A stretch of DNA of 64,000 bases, taken from assembly GCF_030297015.1 (NCBI RefSeq), contig NZ_AP028056.1, positions 2,738,939 to 2,802,938 of the forward strand. Reading direction: 5' to 3'. The stretch comes from Brooklawnia propionicigenes. Its GTDB lineage: Bacteria > Actinomycetota > Actinomycetes > Propionibacteriales > Propionibacteriaceae. The position numbers and the translations under genes were made by a program. A model generated the notes under the pieces. It was not told the DNA's origin, did not search any database, and worked only from the letters and a program-made list of their open reading frames with translations. This document shows positions 10,883-20,674 of the stretch, one piece after another (the stretch's first letter is position 1; the number at the start of each line of letters is the position of its first letter).

Positions 10883-11581
10883 TTATGAGACCACCACAGG
10901 GGTGCGGCGGTGACGGCGCTGCACGGCGGTGAAGACCCACCACAGCGACTGCGCCAACAGGACTGTTGCTGCGCCGAGGATCACGGTGATGAGGGATTCC
11001 GGGGTCCAGCGGCCGCCCATGGCGAGGGCGGCGACGGTCACCGACGACGCGACGACGGCAACGATCATGATGATGCGCGCACCGATCTGGGCCGAGTCTC
11101 GGTTGCGAGCGACCGCCAGGGCCAGTTCGATGATCTGCACCACAGCCACACCGCCGCCGGCGCCGATCGCAAAAACGATGACACCGTCGGACAGTGGTCT
11201 GTCGCTCATGGCGAGGACGAATGCGATGGCGGTGATCAGCAGCGCCTGAGCGTCCAGCACGGCTGCGAGGAGCTGCCAGGAGCGCGCGCCCCGGGGATCT
11301 TGCCGCTTCCGCGGGATGAAATCCCAAGCCCGGGCGTCGAGCCAACGGCTTGCGACGAGCGCGATGGCGAACGTACTCAGCGGCGCCACGAGCGAGGCGA
11401 ACAGGTTGCCGCTGATCAGCCATACGATCGCCCCGATGGCCACGACGATCGGAGGCGAGCACAGTCGTCCGAACCACCATCCGCGCACGTACAACGATCG
11501 GGCTTCGGGTAGCACCGTCGGATGCAGGAGCCGTTTCACGGCAGGATCGGGCAGGGTCACTGCCTCATGCATGTCGTTCAT
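10883..11581 (-). CDS. Multi-pass membrane protein, unknown function
   Basis: 232 residues with about six hydrophobic helices (PPIVVAIGAIVWLISG, LVAPLSTFAIALVASRW, LLAAVLDAQALLITAIAFVL, and three more). I do not recognise a family. Its ATG overlaps the stop of the small regulator gene upstream as ATGA, so the two are translationally coupled, and the VOC gene follows 4 bp downstream. The N-terminal part (LPDPAVKRLLHPTVLPEARS) is cytoplasmic in the likely topology. The arrangement suggests the regulator controls this membrane protein. Confidence 0.6.
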   Translation of the reverse strand: MNDMHEAVTLPDPAVKRLLHPTVLPEARSLYVRGWWFGRLCSPPIVVAIGAIVWLISGNLFASLVAPLSTFAIALVASRWLDARAWDFIPRKRQDPRGARSWQLLAAVLDAQALLITAIAFVLAMSDRPLSDGVIVFAIGAGGGVAVVQIIELALAVARNRDSAQIGARIIMIVAVVASSVTVAALAMGGRWTPESLITVILGAATVLLAQSLWWVFTAVQRRHRRTPVVVS

Positions 11582-12048
11582 CTGGACCTCCAAGGAGTTG
11601 TCGTCAGGTATTCGGGATCGATGTTCGGTCTGGCGAGTTCGTAGACCTTCTGCCGTGCCACACCGAGTGCGCCCGCCACGGTCACCGCGCTGAACTCGTC
11701 GAGGAGCGCATCGACACAGACCGACCGGACGCTCGCGGCGCGGGCGACGAGATGAGACATCAAGGCGCTGACCTCGGCAGCGAGCAGAGCAACGGCTCGT
11801 TCTCCGCCGAAGGCGACCGCCCAGGCCTCCTCTCCCGATGCTGCGGCCTGATAAAGACGGTCGCCGGCATCTTCGAGATGAGATTCGACCTCCAGGGGTG
11901 TGACACCGGCCGCCCGGAAGCGCTCGATGACAGCATTGACCGTTGCTGGGCTGTCTTTCCGGCGGTGTGCGAGGACTCGTGTCCACGCCGCCTCCTCGGA
12001 GAGGGTCGTGCCTGCATCGGGTTTGTCACCCCTGGGGTTACTCTTCAT
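11578..12048 (-). CDS. Small HTH-containing putative regulator
   Basis: 156 residues, soluble, mainly helical. The C-terminal segment VTVAGALGVARQKVYELARP looks like a helix-turn-helix of the kind that reads LGVSRQRVYQ in other actinobacterial proteins. The N-terminal part carries a long charged helix region (ATVNAVIERFRAAGVTPLEV). It begins with a basic start (MKSNPRGDKP) whose codons overlap an operator-like palindrome. It heads an operon with the membrane protein and the VOC gene and is divergent from an alpha/beta hydrolase gene. Autoregulation through the repeated GGGGT sites is inferred. Confidence 0.6.
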   Translation of the reverse strand: MKSNPRGDKPDAGTTLSEEAAWTRVLAHRRKDSPATVNAVIERFRAAGVTPLEVESHLEDAGDRLYQAAASGEEAWAVAFGGERAVALLAAEVSALMSHLVARAASVRSVCVDALLDEFSAVTVAGALGVARQKVYELARPNIDPEYLTTTPWRSR

Positions 12049-12095
12049 GGATCAAGCATTACACGCCGGGGTCAAGTCGTCAACCCCGGGGTGAC
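12025..12095. promoter_or_regulatory. Operator array of ACCCC/GGGGT palindromes between divergent genes
   Basis: Site 1 is GTCACCCC-T-GGGGTTAC at 12025-12041, overlapping the first codons of the regulator gene. Site 2 is GTCAACCCCGGGGTGAC at 12079-12095 with a perfect ACCCCGGGGT core. A further half-site GGGGTCAA starts at 12068 and pairs with site 2 as CCGGGGT-N10-ACCCCGG. A -10-like TGTAAT for the leftward gene lies between the sites (12058-12063). This geometry fits repression of both the regulator and the divergent hydrolase. Confidence 0.6.
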
Positions 12096-12142
12096 AAATC
12101 ATTGGCGACCGTGATGCCGCTGCCGTCTTGCAGACTGGCAAC

Positions 12143-12940: not shown

Positions 12941-12989
12941 ATAGGCAACTCGTGTTGACTATTGCATATAAGCAATGTAAGTTGCCTAT
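12941..12989. promoter_or_regulatory. Nested inverted repeats around a leaderless promoter
   Basis: Outer arms ATAGGCAACT (12941-12950) and AGTTGCCTAT (12980-12989) are a perfect 10-bp inverted repeat. Inside lies a second palindrome ATTGC-N6-GCAAT (12961-12976). A -35 TTGACT (12955-12960) and, 17 bp on, a -10-like TAAGTT (12978-12983) are enclosed, and the ATG at 12990 follows by 6 nt. The two symmetric elements are centred within about 4 bp of each other. Confidence 0.7.
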
Positions 12990-13226
12990 ATGGCACAGAA
13001 AATGATCCCACCTACGGGTGGCCCCGCAGATGAGTTGGCTGCTGTCGTCGCGTTGCGTGAACTGGCCGATCGGCTGGAGGACGCCGCGGTGGAGAAAGCC
13101 ATGCGGCAGGGCTGGTCATGGTCACAGGTCGCGGAGGGTCTGGGCGTCACACGCCAGGCCGTGCACAAGAAACACCTGCATCGGCTCATCGCTGCGGGTG
13201 TCGAGTTGAGGAGGCGAAATGGTTGA
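12990..13226 (+). CDS. Small helix-turn-helix protein paired with a Clp-N protein
   Basis: 78 residues. After a short N-terminus the chain is a helix (VVALRELADRLEDAAVEKA) followed by a clear HTH: SWSQVAEGLGVTRQAVHKKH. It is presumably the regulator acting on the nested palindromes directly upstream, including its own promoter. The gene is read as leaderless. It overlaps the next gene by 8 nt (stop at 13224-13226, next ATG at 13219), so both proteins are made together. The pairing of such an HTH with a stand-alone Clp N-domain recurs in actinomycetes as far as I know, but I know no established function. Confidence 0.75.
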   Translation: MAQKMIPPTGGPADELAAVVALRELADRLEDAAVEKAMRQGWSWSQVAEGLGVTRQAVHKKHLHRLIAAGVELRRRNG

Positions 13227-13692
13227 CGAGAAGATGAACAGGTCATTGCAGGCGGTGCTGTCGCGCGCGATCGACGAAGCGAGTGCCCGTAGATCGACCA
13301 CGGTAGAAGCGGAGCATCTGCTGCTGGCTCTGGCCACCGATGAGGGATTGATCGCGGCAAAGGTGCTTGCCGATGCAGGTCTGACCCATGATGCGATCGA
13401 GGCTGCGCTGGATCAGGAGCGGGCCGAGAGCCTGGCTGCGGCCGGGATCGGGCCGGTGGATGAGAGTCGTCTGGCTGCGACGCCGCGCCAGGTGCGTCCT
13501 GGATGGGGTCCCTCCGTGAAGGAGGCGATCCTTCGCGGCAAGAAGCCGGTGATTTCGGACGGGCGACACCGACCGTCCGAAACCGAACTGCTGATCGGGA
13601 TCCTGCAGGCGAACCTCGGGACGGTGCCGCGCATGCTGGCGATCGCAGGCATCGACCGCGGCGACCTCATCGAACGCGCTCGGCAGGCGTGA
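13219..13692 (+). CDS. Stand-alone Clp N-terminal (Clp_N) domain protein
   Basis: 157 residues made of two Clp-N repeats and no AAA+ or protease domain. Repeat 1: LSRAIDEASARRSTTVEAEH followed by LLLALATDEG; repeat 2: VKEAILRGKKPVISDGRHRP then SETELLIGILQANLGTVPRM. Clp-N repeats normally bind substrates or adaptors for ClpA/ClpC-type unfoldases. Here the domain is separate and coupled to a small HTH regulator, so it may act as a stress or ligand sensor, an anti-adaptor, or a substrate-delivery factor. The middle linker (ATPRQVRPGWGPS) is basic. None of these roles is shown by the sequence itself. Confidence 0.78.
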   Translation: MVDEKMNRSLQAVLSRAIDEASARRSTTVEAEHLLLALATDEGLIAAKVLADAGLTHDAIEAALDQERAESLAAAGIGPVDESRLAATPRQVRPGWGPSVKEAILRGKKPVISDGRHRPSETELLIGILQANLGTVPRMLAIAGIDRGDLIERARQA

Positions 13693-13734: not shown

Positions 13735-14127
13735 ATGGAGAGCAGGCATATCAGCCGGGTGATCGCAGCATCCCCCGAAGCGGTCTATGCGTACGCGTCC
13801 GACCCCGACAATCTCGCGAAATGGGCTGCAGGGCTGACGCAAAGCGAGGTGATCCGGGACGGCGACAGCCTGCTCGTAGAGTCTCCGATGGGGCAGGTCA
13901 CCGTCGTCTTCACACCCCGCAACGATTTTGGGGTCATCGATCATGATGTGCGGCTGCCCTCCGGGGAGGTTGTGAACAATCCGGTCAGGGTCGTTGCGCA
14001 TCCTGACGGTGCGGAGATCATCTTCACCATTCGCCAGCTCGGGCTCACCGATGAGGAGTTCGATCGCGATGCGGCGATGGTCGAACAGGATCTTGACACC
14101 CTGAAGATGATTGTCGAACGGCTCTGA
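13735..14127 (+). CDS. SRPBCC family protein
   Basis: 130-residue START/Bet v1-like fold. The N-terminal ISRVIAASPEAVYAYASDPD is the classic SRPBCC entry strand and helix, with NLAKWAAGL next; the C-terminal long helix is FDRDAAMVEQDLDTLKMIVE. Such proteins bind hydrophobic ligands in a cavity; ligand unknown. It lies 42 bp downstream of the Clp-N gene on the same strand and could be part of that transcript. Confidence 0.75.
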   Translation: MESRHISRVIAASPEAVYAYASDPDNLAKWAAGLTQSEVIRDGDSLLVESPMGQVTVVFTPRNDFGVIDHDVRLPSGEVVNNPVRVVAHPDGAEIIFTIRQLGLTDEEFDRDAAMVEQDLDTLKMIVERL

Positions 14128-16713: not shown

Positions 16714-17646
16714 ATGACTGCAATGGAGGTACAGAATCTGCACAAGCGCTATGGCCGGCGCGTTGCTGTCGAGGATGTCTCCTTCACCGTTGAAGCAGGG
16801 GAGATCTTCGGCATCATCGGGCCGAACGGCGCAGGCAAGACGACAACGGTGGAAAGCATCGCCGGCCTACGAGTGCCCGACTCGGGAACGATCTCCGTGC
16901 TCGGGCTCGACCCGGTCAAGGACCGGGCGGAGGTGCGCGAGTGCCTCGGAGTGCAATTGCAGGAAAGCAGCTTCCCGGATGCGATCACGGTATCCGAGGC
17001 GCTCGAGCTCTACAGCTCCTTCTACCGGAACCCGGTCGACTGGCAGGATCTGATGGAACTCCTGGGCCTGGGTGACAAACGCAAGGCGAGATACAAGGCC
17101 CTTTCCGGCGGGCAGAAGCAGCGGCTCTCGATCGCGCTGGCGTTGGTCGGCGGCCCAAGAATTGCCATTCTCGATGAGCTCACAACGGGACTGGACCCGC
17201 AGTCTCGGCGTGACACCTGGAGCCTCATCGAACGGGTCCGTGACTCCGGCGTGACGATCCTGCTCGTCACCCACCTCATGGACGAGGCAGAACGTCTCTG
17301 CGATCGGATCGCCGTCATTGACGGCGGCAGGGTCGCTGCGTTGGATACCCCGGCTGGCCTGATCGCCGCGGCCAGCGTTATGCAGCAGGTCAGATTCCGT
17401 CTCAGCAGGCCGCTGGACAAACGCCTGTTGACCGAACTGCCCGAAGTGAGCGATGTAGAGATCACCGAGGGCCGCTATCTGGTTACCGGCAGCGGGCAGC
17501 TGTTGGGCAGCGTCGCCGGGGCTCTTGCCCGGGCGGAGATCGTCGCCGAAGATCTCCGGATCGATCAGCGCAGCCTCGACGACGCCTTCGTGGCCTTCAC
17601 GGGCCGCCCGCCGGAATCATCGGCACCCCGCCAAGAGGAGGCCTGA
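16714..17646 (+). CDS. ABC exporter ATP-binding protein
   Basis: 310-residue ATPase of the DrrA/ABC-2 type. Walker A is GPNGAGKTT (residues 36-44), the signature is LSGGQKQRLSIALAL, Walker B IAILDELTTGLDPQ (with Leu where Pro is usual) and the switch histidine sits in LLVTHLMDEAERL. After the ATPase core a ~70-residue tail typical of DrrA-like exporters follows. The permease gene starts 6 bp downstream, and a DUF1345 membrane protein, a histidine kinase and a response regulator come next, so this is likely a drug or lipid exporter with its own two-component control. Confidence 0.9.
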   Translation: MTAMEVQNLHKRYGRRVAVEDVSFTVEAGEIFGIIGPNGAGKTTTVESIAGLRVPDSGTISVLGLDPVKDRAEVRECLGVQLQESSFPDAITVSEALELYSSFYRNPVDWQDLMELLGLGDKRKARYKALSGGQKQRLSIALALVGGPRIAILDELTTGLDPQSRRDTWSLIERVRDSGVTILLVTHLMDEAERLCDRIAVIDGGRVAALDTPAGLIAAASVMQQVRFRLSRPLDKRLLTELPEVSDVEITEGRYLVTGSGQLLGSVAGALARAEIVAEDLRIDQRSLDDAFVAFTGRPPESSAPRQEEA

Positions 17647-17651
17647 TCCAT

Positions 17652-18410
17652 ATGAGTGCCCTCACGAACATGATCAAGGTGGAGACGAAGCTCTTCCTTC
17701 GAGACCGTGCCACAGTGCTCTTCGGGGTGCTGTTCCCCACGGCGCTCCTTCTCGGGCTGGGTTCCATTCCCGATCTCAGGACGCCCTCGGCGGATCTGGG
17801 CGGGCTGCGTCCCATTGACGTCTGGGCGCCGACAGCGCTGGTGTTCGGGATCGTGATGATCGCCGTGCAGCATGTGCCCACGGTGATCGCGACCTACCGG
17901 GAACGCGGCATTCTGCGCAGGCTGTCGACGACTCCGGTACATCCGCGCAACGTGCTGATCGCACAGATGATCGTCGCCTTCTCTTCCGTGCTCGTCTCTG
18001 CGGCACTGATGATCTTTGCCGCGTGGGCGGTGCTCGGCATCGCGCCGCCCGAGCAACCTCTGAAATTCGCCGTCGCCTTCGTCATCGGCTACGCCGCCGT
18101 GCTGGGAATCAGCATGATCACCGCAGCGGTGGTGCGCTCCAGCAGCGCGGCAACATCGATCGGCACGCTTCTGTTTGTCGTTCTGATGTTCTTCGGCGGG
18201 GCCTTTCTGCCGCGAGCGATCATGCCCGAGGTGCTCCAGACGATCGGTGATTTCGTGCCGCCGGGCCTGCAAGCGTTGATCTCGTCCTGGTCCCCGGCAG
18301 CAGGTGAGATCACCGGCGCCGGAATGTCGTTCTGGGTGCAGCTCTCCGTCATGGCCGGCATTGCGGTGATCACGGCCGCGGTGGCTGCGAAGCTGTTCCG
18401 CTGGGAGTAG
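17652..18410 (+). CDS. ABC-2 type exporter permease
   Basis: 252 residues, six helices, ABC-2 membrane domain. VETKLFLRDRATVLFGVLFP begins the first helix; ATYRERGILRRLSTTPVHPR is the intracellular coupling segment typical of DrrB-type permeases; the last helices include MSFWVQLSVMAGIAVITAAV. It pairs with the ATP-binding protein immediately upstream. Substrate unknown. Confidence 0.88.
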   Translation: MSALTNMIKVETKLFLRDRATVLFGVLFPTALLLGLGSIPDLRTPSADLGGLRPIDVWAPTALVFGIVMIAVQHVPTVIATYRERGILRRLSTTPVHPRNVLIAQMIVAFSSVLVSAALMIFAAWAVLGIAPPEQPLKFAVAFVIGYAAVLGISMITAAVVRSSSAATSIGTLLFVVLMFFGGAFLPRAIMPEVLQTIGDFVPPGLQALISSWSPAAGEITGAGMSFWVQLSVMAGIAVITAAVAAKLFRWE

Positions 18411-19244
<834 letters not shown>

Positions 19245-19339
19245 GATGGCAGCCAATTGCGGCAATGGCAGGGAACGCACCGAGCACGAGCGCACGCACG
19301 AACACGGCAAGCGCATCCGAGCGGAGCAGGAGGTGGCAG

Positions 19340-20674
19340 ATGCCGGATCCCCGGATCAGTGACCGCCCGAACCTCGGAGCGCCCGCAGTCGCCGCGGATG
19401 GGGAGCGGACGAATCGCGCCCGCCTGGCTCGGAAAGAACAAGACCTGCGGATCTGGGATTATCTCCAGTTGGGCACCCCCTGGGTTCTGCTGGCGCTCTC
19501 CACGACGATCTACTTCTCGTGGGCGTTACCGGCCTCCGGAGAGGGTTACTGGCCCGACGGGGCATCTGTCCTCGGACTCGTTGCGGTCACGGCAACGTGG
19601 GTGCTGTTCGGTCACACGCTGCCCATCAGGAGAAAGACGCTCCGACCTGTGCCCGCCGTCATCTATTTCGTCGGGTTCTTGGCGCTGTGCCTCATCTTCA
19701 TGACCTACTCCGAGGTCTTCGTCATCTTCACCATTTCGGGATTCTTCTACGCCTACCTGCTCACTCCCTGGCCGGTAGGGGTACTCGGCGTCCTGGCCAC
19801 CTCCGTCGTCCTCAATGGCTCGATGCTGCTGCGCAGCGAGCTGACCCCGCAGACGCTAGTGATGTTCATCCTGATCGTCCTCGTCCAGACGGCGGCAATC
19901 GGCGTGGGAATCCCCTTCTCAGCACGAACCGAGACCGAAGAACGCAAACGAGAGAAACTCGTGGAGCAACTCGAAACGACACTGCATGAGAATGCCGGCC
20001 TGCATGCGCAGCTGGTCGCCCAGGCCCGGGAATCGGGCATCCAGGACGAGCGACAGCGACTGGCCGGCGAGATCCACGACACCCTGGCCCAGGGCCTAGC
20101 CGGCATCATCACGCAACTTCAAGCCGCGGAGCGTTCCGCGAACGTTCAGGGCGAGGCGGAGAGCCATGTGGCGGTGGCGCTTCGGCTCGCGCGCAGCAGC
20201 CTGGCCGAGGCTCGGCGGTCTGTACGGGCGCTCGCTCCCGAGGAACTCGGCAGAGCGCAGCTTCCCGATGCTCTCCGAACGCTGGCCGAGCGATGGTCGC
20301 AGGACGAGGGCGTCCCGGTGCAGGTGGAGGTCACGGGCATCCAGCTGCCTATCAGTCCGGCGATCGAGGTGTCGCTCTTCCGTGTCGCCCAGGAAGCGCT
20401 GACCAACGTGGCGAAACATGCGGAGGCCTCGCGGGTCGGCCTGACACTGTCGTATGCGGGCCCCGAGGTGTTGCTCGATGTGCGGGACGATGGACGCGGA
20501 TTCGCGCAAACCGAGAACCCAGGCTTCGGCCTGACGAGCATGCGTCAGCGCATCAGAGGTGTGGGTGGCTACCTCGAGGTGGAGAGCGTGCCGGGCGAGG
20601 GGACATCCGTGAGTGCGCGGGTACCGGCAATCGTTCTTCCGGGGCATGCGAGCGAGGAGGAGGGCGACCGATGA
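19340..20674 (+). CDS. Sensor histidine kinase, NarL-type (HisKA_3)
   Basis: 444-residue membrane kinase. Six helices form the input region, the first being LGTPWVLLALSTTIYFSWAL. A coiled linker follows (RKREKLVEQLETTLHENAGL). The dimerisation/phosphoacceptor motif is RQRLAGEIHDTLAQGLAGII with the phosphorylated His, and the HATPase region has EALTNVAKHAEASRVGL and LDVRDDGRGFAQ plus FGLTSMRQRI. No periplasmic domain is evident, so it probably senses the membrane or a neighbour. ATG 19340 is selected because AGGAGG lies 5-6 nt upstream. The regulator gene overlaps its stop as ATGA. Confidence 0.88.
   Translation: MPDPRISDRPNLGAPAVAADGERTNRARLARKEQDLRIWDYLQLGTPWVLLALSTTIYFSWALPASGEGYWPDGASVLGLVAVTATWVLFGHTLPIRRKTLRPVPAVIYFVGFLALCLIFMTYSEVFVIFTISGFFYAYLLTPWPVGVLGVLATSVVLNGSMLLRSELTPQTLVMFILIVLVQTAAIGVGIPFSARTETEERKREKLVEQLETTLHENAGLHAQLVAQARESGIQDERQRLAGEIHDTLAQGLAGIITQLQAAERSANVQGEAESHVAVALRLARSSLAEARRSVRALAPEELGRAQLPDALRTLAERWSQDEGVPVQVEVTGIQLPISPAIEVSLFRVAQEALTNVAKHAEASRVGLTLSYAGPEVLLDVRDDGRGFAQTENPGFGLTSMRQRIRGVGGYLEVESVPGEGTSVSARVPAIVLPGHASEEEGDR

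Follow-up and report, generated by a model that had tools for sequence, protein, structure and literature searches.

The locus described here lies in the genome of Brooklawnia propionicigenes, a single contig of 3.2 Mb, and was analysed within a stretch of 64,000 nucleotides which we call the window. Two small genes on the forward strand are preceded by a densely packed control region (Table 1). The original prediction was a 78-residue HTH gene overlapping a gene for a double Clp-N domain with no AAA+ part, and both the open reading frames and Pfam agree with it. The two genes are read in different frames, each from its own start, and share 8 nt; the GGAGG in front of the Clp-N gene is kept at the same place in relatives. 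The Clp-N protein scores above the Pfam threshold (Clp_N, E=4.6e-10), and its second repeat becomes visible only when the protein is aligned with its relatives and with ClpC N-domains. An AF2 model of this protein alone reached a pLDDT of 42 and was set aside. The HTH protein matches the generic HTH models of Pfam weakly, and its structure model is a confident helical HTH (pLDDT 88). A locus identical to the one in the window is found in a metagenome-assembled Propionibacterium sp. A phage origin of the pair was considered and dropped, as no relative was found in viral_contigs.

Table 1. Features of the HTH/Clp-N locus; positions refer to the window.
Feature	Position	Strand	Remarks
Outer inverted repeat, perfect 10 bp	12941-12950 ATAGGCAACT / 12980-12989 AGTTGCCTAT	.	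half-sites of the two operators paired crosswise
Distal operator (putative)	12944..12959	+	GGCAAC-TCGT-GTTGAC; overlaps the -35-like TTGACT
Promoter (putative)	12955..12983	+	TTGACT-N17-TAAGTT (TANNNT type); by inspection, layout shared by relatives
Inner palindrome	12961-12976	.	ATTGC-N6-GCAAT; within the outer repeat, likewise operator half-sites paired crosswise
Proximal operator (putative)	12971..12986	+	AGCAAT-GTAA-GTTGCC; covers the -10 region and ends 3 nt before the ATG
HTH repressor gene (putative)	12990..13226	+	78 aa, ATG 12990 to TGA 13226; ClpC2-N-terminal-domain-like
Shine-Dalgarno sequence of the Clp-N gene	13209..13214	+	AGGAGG; 4 nt ahead of the Clp-N ATG
Stand-alone double Clp-N gene	13219..13692	+	157 aa, ATG 13219 to TGA 13692; Pfam PF02861
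SRPBCC-fold gene, possible third operon gene (uncertain)	13735..14127	+	PF10604; 42 nt downstream of the Clp-N gene

The control region had been described as a promoter wrapped in nested palindromes. Both repeats are present, and the outer one can be extended to 14 nt at 93%; no repeat of its type arose in 2000 dinucleotide shuffles of the 100 bp upstream. It consists of the left half of the distal operator and the right half of the proximal one, and the region is better read as two tandem 16-bp operators with centres 27 bp apart. A sigma-70 consensus scan did not call the promoter which we place there. Because the ATG sits where transcription would start from the -35-like TTGACT and the TANNNT -10, the mRNA of the pair is probably leaderless and would begin with the A of this codon.

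Relatives of the window type, here called class A, were defined as loci whose Clp-N protein reaches 85 bits or more against the profile of the window family, which gave 79 unique loci. The unit conserved among the relatives is a 16-bp site which reads AGCAAC or GTCAAC, four arbitrary bases, and GTTGAC or GTTGCT, the window variants included. This site is doubled, with centres 26-29 bp apart and the downstream copy a few bases before the start codon; what has been conserved is this tandem arrangement rather than the perfection of the outer repeat. In 74 of the 79 class-A loci the proximal core CAA[CT]N4[AG]TTG lies 4-6 nt ahead of the start codon, and 68 of the 79 have both operators, while shuffled upstream regions gave one site in 0.6% of the cases and a pair in 0 of 1560. 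In the window the twin pattern is expected 0.00 times and found once, and it does not recur elsewhere in the genome. Exact matches to the 17-bp motif of a single operator are likewise confined to the two window sites. Since the twin pattern is unique and the single motif exact only at these two sites, the HTH protein is, judged from the sequence, a local autoregulator and not the controller of a regulon.

The HTH gene lies directly upstream of the Clp-N gene in all 71 dereplicated class-A loci. Run against 394 Actinomycetes genomes, the HTH profile gave hits in 219. A separate Clp-N gene comes right after the HTH gene in 78 of 80 further loci from this search; 78/80 should not be taken as a ratio of split to fused forms, as weaker, fused-like hits were left out of the sample, which favours split forms because the profile was built from split proteins. 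Of five loci with no Clp-N match to the profile, two (L054, L058) nevertheless carry a Clp-N-like ORF. The original prediction had proposed that pairing and palindromes be followed in relatives, and both turned out to be decisively conserved. The distribution of the module is patchy: it was found in 10 of 396 genomes across the phylum and in 42 of 200 in one large-genome family, and it was absent from the five congeners sampled. In identity to the window the HTH protein (61-73%) is the better conserved half compared with the Clp-N protein (36-46%).

A recent frameshift in a fused clpC2 gene, either by decay or by a sequencing error, would also produce two overlapping frames, and fused ClpC2 is indeed found in the taxonomic order of the host (L020, L024, L029, L033). 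The chance of this is practically negligible. The split, with its own Shine-Dalgarno sequence, is present in essentially all relatives with differing overlaps (-8, -4, -1 and +2), two genomes (G048, G054) carry both split and fused copies, and the independent metagenome-assembled locus is identical. In one family sample 38 loci were split and one (L207) was a single reading frame. The conserved split with its varying overlaps refutes a decaying fusion.

The split Clp-N proteins fall into classes: the window type (A), proteins fused to an SRPBCC domain (B), proteins with a long glycine-rich linker (C) and proteins with a ClpC-like start (D). Class D proteins begin with MFERF and contain GHIPFT..KK.LEL as in ClpC, and they occur in Mycobacterium-like and many other genomes. 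Eight split proteins (L051, L052, L056, L064, L083, L092, L096, L105) carry a C-terminal SRPBCC domain (PF10604), and by their domains they might be combined sensors with both ClpC docking and hydrophobic-ligand binding. At L050, L058 and L061 the split Clp-N protein is about 290 aa long, the repeats being separated by a long Gly/Arg-rich linker which is probably disordered. A fused HTH-Clp-N protein (L018) has cysteine motifs resembling the ClpX zinc finger (CxxC...CxxC, twice).

Both halves of the pair are related to ClpC2 (Rv2667) of M. tuberculosis and M. smegmatis. The HTH family profile matches the ClpC2 structure 8ADA with E=0.0012, a modest sequence link, and hhalign gave 96.7% probability over 32 columns when the profile was aligned with the HTH of fused ClpC2 from the order of the host. 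Comparison of the HTH model with known structures (Foldseek, VIA-align) returned generic HTH matches only, the best with Z 6.1; 8ADA is absent among the matches listed, and this absence proves nothing. The Clp-N profile matches ClpC N-domains (E=6e-12) and the C-domain of ClpC2, 8AD9 (E=4.7e-5).

ClpC2 has been characterized by Taylor et al. (2023, PMC10030653), who showed autorepression, induction and sponge action for the fused protein. It forms a dimer through its N-terminal domain and represses its own promoter at a palindrome, CGTCAAC-N5-GTTGACG, which lies one or two bases upstream of a leaderless ORF and is often doubled. Cyclomarin A releases the repression through loss of DNA binding and gives a 263-fold induction, after which ClpC2 reaches an 84-fold excess over ClpC1, the compound is sequestered and the cells are protected (PMC10030653). 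The window pair has the same order of parts, an HTH followed by a double Clp-N without AAA+, both domains being homologous, and its palindromes share the CAAC/GTTG core, the position and the doubling over a probably leaderless promoter before the ORF. The main differences are that ClpC2 is one polypeptide whereas the window has two overlapping genes, and that the operator spacer is five bases in ClpC2 and in the fused copies with a recognisable operator, but four in the window, as in 96 of the 97 proximal sites of split loci; the window operators thus do not read CGTCAAC-N5-GTTGACG. By sequence the window pair is a two-gene form of ClpC2, and its class of mechanism is already known. The original statement that no mechanism was known has to be revised accordingly, as autorepression and sponge action are published for the fused homologue.

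For the DNA contact of ClpC2 the authors propose an arginine pair in the Clp-N half (PMC10030653). These arginines (positions 93 and 97) are not conserved in class-A Clp-N. Because class-A Clp-N lacks the pair and the HTH is the better conserved protein, the HTH protein alone is expected to contact DNA, and the Clp-N protein would be a co-repressor or anti-repressor working via protein contact. Nature's separation of the two parts thereby offers a clear way to tell which half of ClpC2 binds DNA.

The ClpC2-like HTH is also found in other company. According to parts of a paper on RelS-RelI (Rv2664-Rv2663; PMC13284704), RelI has a ClpC2-like HTH, RelS is a toxin with an RNase fold, and proteins with such an HTH lie next to RelS toxins or are fused to other domains; these parts do not mention HTH/Clp-N pairs. 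RelI resembles the window HTH protein in having this HTH encoded as a separate small gene, and it is also matched by our HTH profile. The pair might by this likeness be toxin-antitoxin-like, the HTH protein being an antitoxin-type repressor and the Clp-N protein a restrained effector. We regard this as highly improbable. The partner of RelI is an RNase-like toxin whereas the Clp-N partner has no catalytic features, the gene order is reversed, relS coming first (PMC13284704), and derepressed fused ClpC2 is non-toxic in M. smegmatis (PMC10030653). No RelS-like toxin gene adjoins the window HTH gene; its neighbours are the Clp-N gene and an alpha/beta hydrolase. At four other loci (L104, L106, L114, L140) a Clp-N subtype of the MGQVYLDANTEALRR-like kind is immediately followed by an alpha/beta-hydrolase gene.

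The ligand was approached through the residues which contact cyclomarin in ClpC1 (F2, F80 and E89 in ClpC1 numbering). All three are present in the host's own ClpC, and the F and E contact residues are kept in ClpC2, whereas the window Clp-N protein has no F at position 2, W at 80 and L at 89. Class D has F2 and F80 in 14 of 14 proteins and E89 in 11 of 14 aligned; in class A F2 occurs in 0 of 17 and position 80 is W, I, L, M, V or F. Given the substitutions in the window protein, cyclomarin is unlikely to be its ligand. Since class D keeps the pocket residues while class A, including the window, has changed them, the split forms include proteins that could bind cyclomarin-like compounds (class D) and others that appear re-tuned to some other ligand (class A). 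ClpC3 of M. smegmatis is, according to passages of PMC10864484 and PMC10914731, a small Clp protein with an N-domain-like fold which binds cyclomarin and ecumicin and, in their account of Hoi et al. (2023), is induced together with ClpC2. It may be a class-D split Clp-N protein with the pocket kept, unlike the window. Mycobacterium genomes do contain split Clp-N proteins; the one tested has no close match in the solved "Clp amino terminal domain protein" 8B9O. Neither the split into two genes with its different spacer nor the class with the diverged pocket and the linkage to exporters is described in the literature searched, to which Hoi et al. (2023) on ClpC3 does not belong.

This linkage, a further difference from ClpC2, concerns the genes downstream of the pair in relatives. 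An ABC-2 exporter ATPase gene follows the Clp-N gene on the same strand within 450 nt in 21 of the 68 class-A loci with enough sequence, compared to 1 of 106 flanking genes taken as controls (Fisher p=5e-9), the one being the ABC gene of the window itself; the ratio is approximate because the ATPase profile was made from seven such neighbours and the gene calling was crude. The ATPases belong to at least three distant lineages (35-41% identity), which suggests that exporters were recruited repeatedly. In a genome of the same genus (G006) and in another one (G029) the last 4 nt of the Clp-N gene are shared with the start of the ATPase gene, behind which comes a permease. DrrAB-type exporters (TIGR01188, DrrB family) are cargo in many class-A modules: the G006 ATPase is DrrA-like and above the curated DrrA cut-off, and those of L174 and L188 are above the TIGR01188 cut-off. 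An annotated set of four genes with this layout, preceded by the same twin operators, is also present on the 85-kb plasmid pSCO1 of Streptomyces collinus. Other class-A loci have different cargo, in one subset a DUF998 membrane gene sharing 1-4 nt with the end of the Clp-N gene, and in a few loci genes for beta-lactamase-fold hydrolases.

In the window no exporter gene lies directly behind the Clp-N gene; the SRPBCC gene is found there instead. It belongs to the same Pfam family (PF10604) as the domain fused to other split Clp-N proteins, but a link between these fusions and the gene at 13735 was rejected, as direct similarity is near random, and stays a hint. Some 3 kb from the Clp-N gene the window contains a DrrA/DrrB-like ABC pair (16714-18410), the same general kind of exporter as the cargo of the relatives, followed by a HisKA_3 histidine kinase (16714-20674 in all). 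This pair was considered as a member of the regulon and dropped: it has no twin operator, and its ATPase shares no more than 36-43% identity with the exporters of the modules.

Our preferred model, to which we assign a probability of about 0.68, is that the pair is a ligand-inducible, self-repressing sensor and decoy of the ClpC2 type for molecules which dock on the ClpC N-domain, and that in relatives it often comes with an efflux pump as cargo. It builds on the ClpC2 homology of both parts, their pairing, the conserved operators, the single genomic target and the exporter linkage in relatives. From the analogy we infer that the window pair acts as ClpC2 does, that its two proteins are in contact and that a compound directed at ClpC is the ligand. 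The HTH protein, presumably a dimer, would bind the two tandem operators over the -35 and the -10 and keep the pair switched off. The Clp-N protein would mimic the ligand-binding N-domain of the host's ClpC unfoldase. When a molecule targeting this domain appears, be it a peptide antibiotic or some other toxin or protein that binds ClpC, it would be bound by the Clp-N protein, whose altered effect on the HTH repressor would then induce the operon. Surplus Clp-N protein would serve as a decoy sparing ClpC, and in many relatives the same transcript would also encode an ABC exporter which removes the molecule. The original idea of a self-regulated pair of an HTH protein and a free Clp-N protein, probably a ligand-binding switch, gains support from the conserved pairing and operators.

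The ligand need not be a small molecule. The Clp-N protein might bind unfolded or aberrant proteins, or adaptors and substrates of ClpC, so that its occupancy would induce the operon and buffer ClpC; heat induces fused ClpC2 about twofold, and at high concentration the protein shields casein from ClpC1 (PMC10030653). The heat induction is however weak compared to the 263-fold induction by cyclomarin, and the frequent ABC-2 exporter linkage and the patchy, partly plasmid-borne occurrence fit a xenobiotic better. Such a proteostasis sensor is in our opinion unlikely.

A role as protease adaptor, which had been suggested originally, is not borne out. The Clp-N protein would here deliver the HTH repressor, or some other protein, to ClpC, and induction would come about through proteolysis of the repressor. 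The two genes are coupled and the Clp-N protein is a homologue of the domain which serves ClpC as docking site for adaptors and substrates, but the ClpC adaptors known to us are partners of the Clp-N domain and none of them is one itself. Fused ClpC2, moreover, works by a ligand-caused loss of DNA binding, with no degradation reported (PMC10030653). Taken together we find adaptor function rather improbable.

A wider proposal, put forward tentatively and at somewhat less than even odds, is that class A represents a hitherto undescribed family of actinobacterial resistance switches which respond to a ligand, and in which a free, re-tuned, ClpC-derived Clp-N protein controls an HTH repressor in trans and thereby an exporter or other cargo. 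If this is true the module would be a target-mimic sensor, in which the docking domain of the drug target is both sensor and decoy and in which sensing and DNA binding are placed on two polypeptides. ClpC1 is a drug target in tuberculosis, and decoys of the ClpC2 type blunt compounds directed against it. The widespread, sometimes plasmid-borne and exporter-linked two-gene form suggests that sensing of ClpC-directed compounds may be a general and mobile trait of actinobacteria, and that there may be as yet undiscovered ClpC-directed natural products to which such sensors would be tuned.

A few minor observations were made along the way. The DUF998 overlap is seen at many class-A loci of one genus (L014, L158, L161, L166, L167, L168, L170, L171) and may be a functional hint for DUF998. 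At L013 a short ORF 3' of the Clp-N gene looks as if the ATPase start VLDVARLRMRYGTK had been joined to the permease end GRMARRESG of an exporter operon, and it is possibly a deletion remnant of such an operon. In the window itself a 156-aa ORF on the reverse strand (11578-12048) has no Pfam match and an HTH-like stretch, GALGVARQKVYELARP, near its end. Its start lies amid a 20-nt inverted repeat (12022-12098, TTTGTCACCCCTGGGGTTAC / GTCAACCCCGGGGTGACAAA), the second arm of which, GTCAACCCCGGGGTGACAAA, resembles the fused-ClpC2 operator with its N5 spacer; this is perhaps another self-regulated HTH gene.
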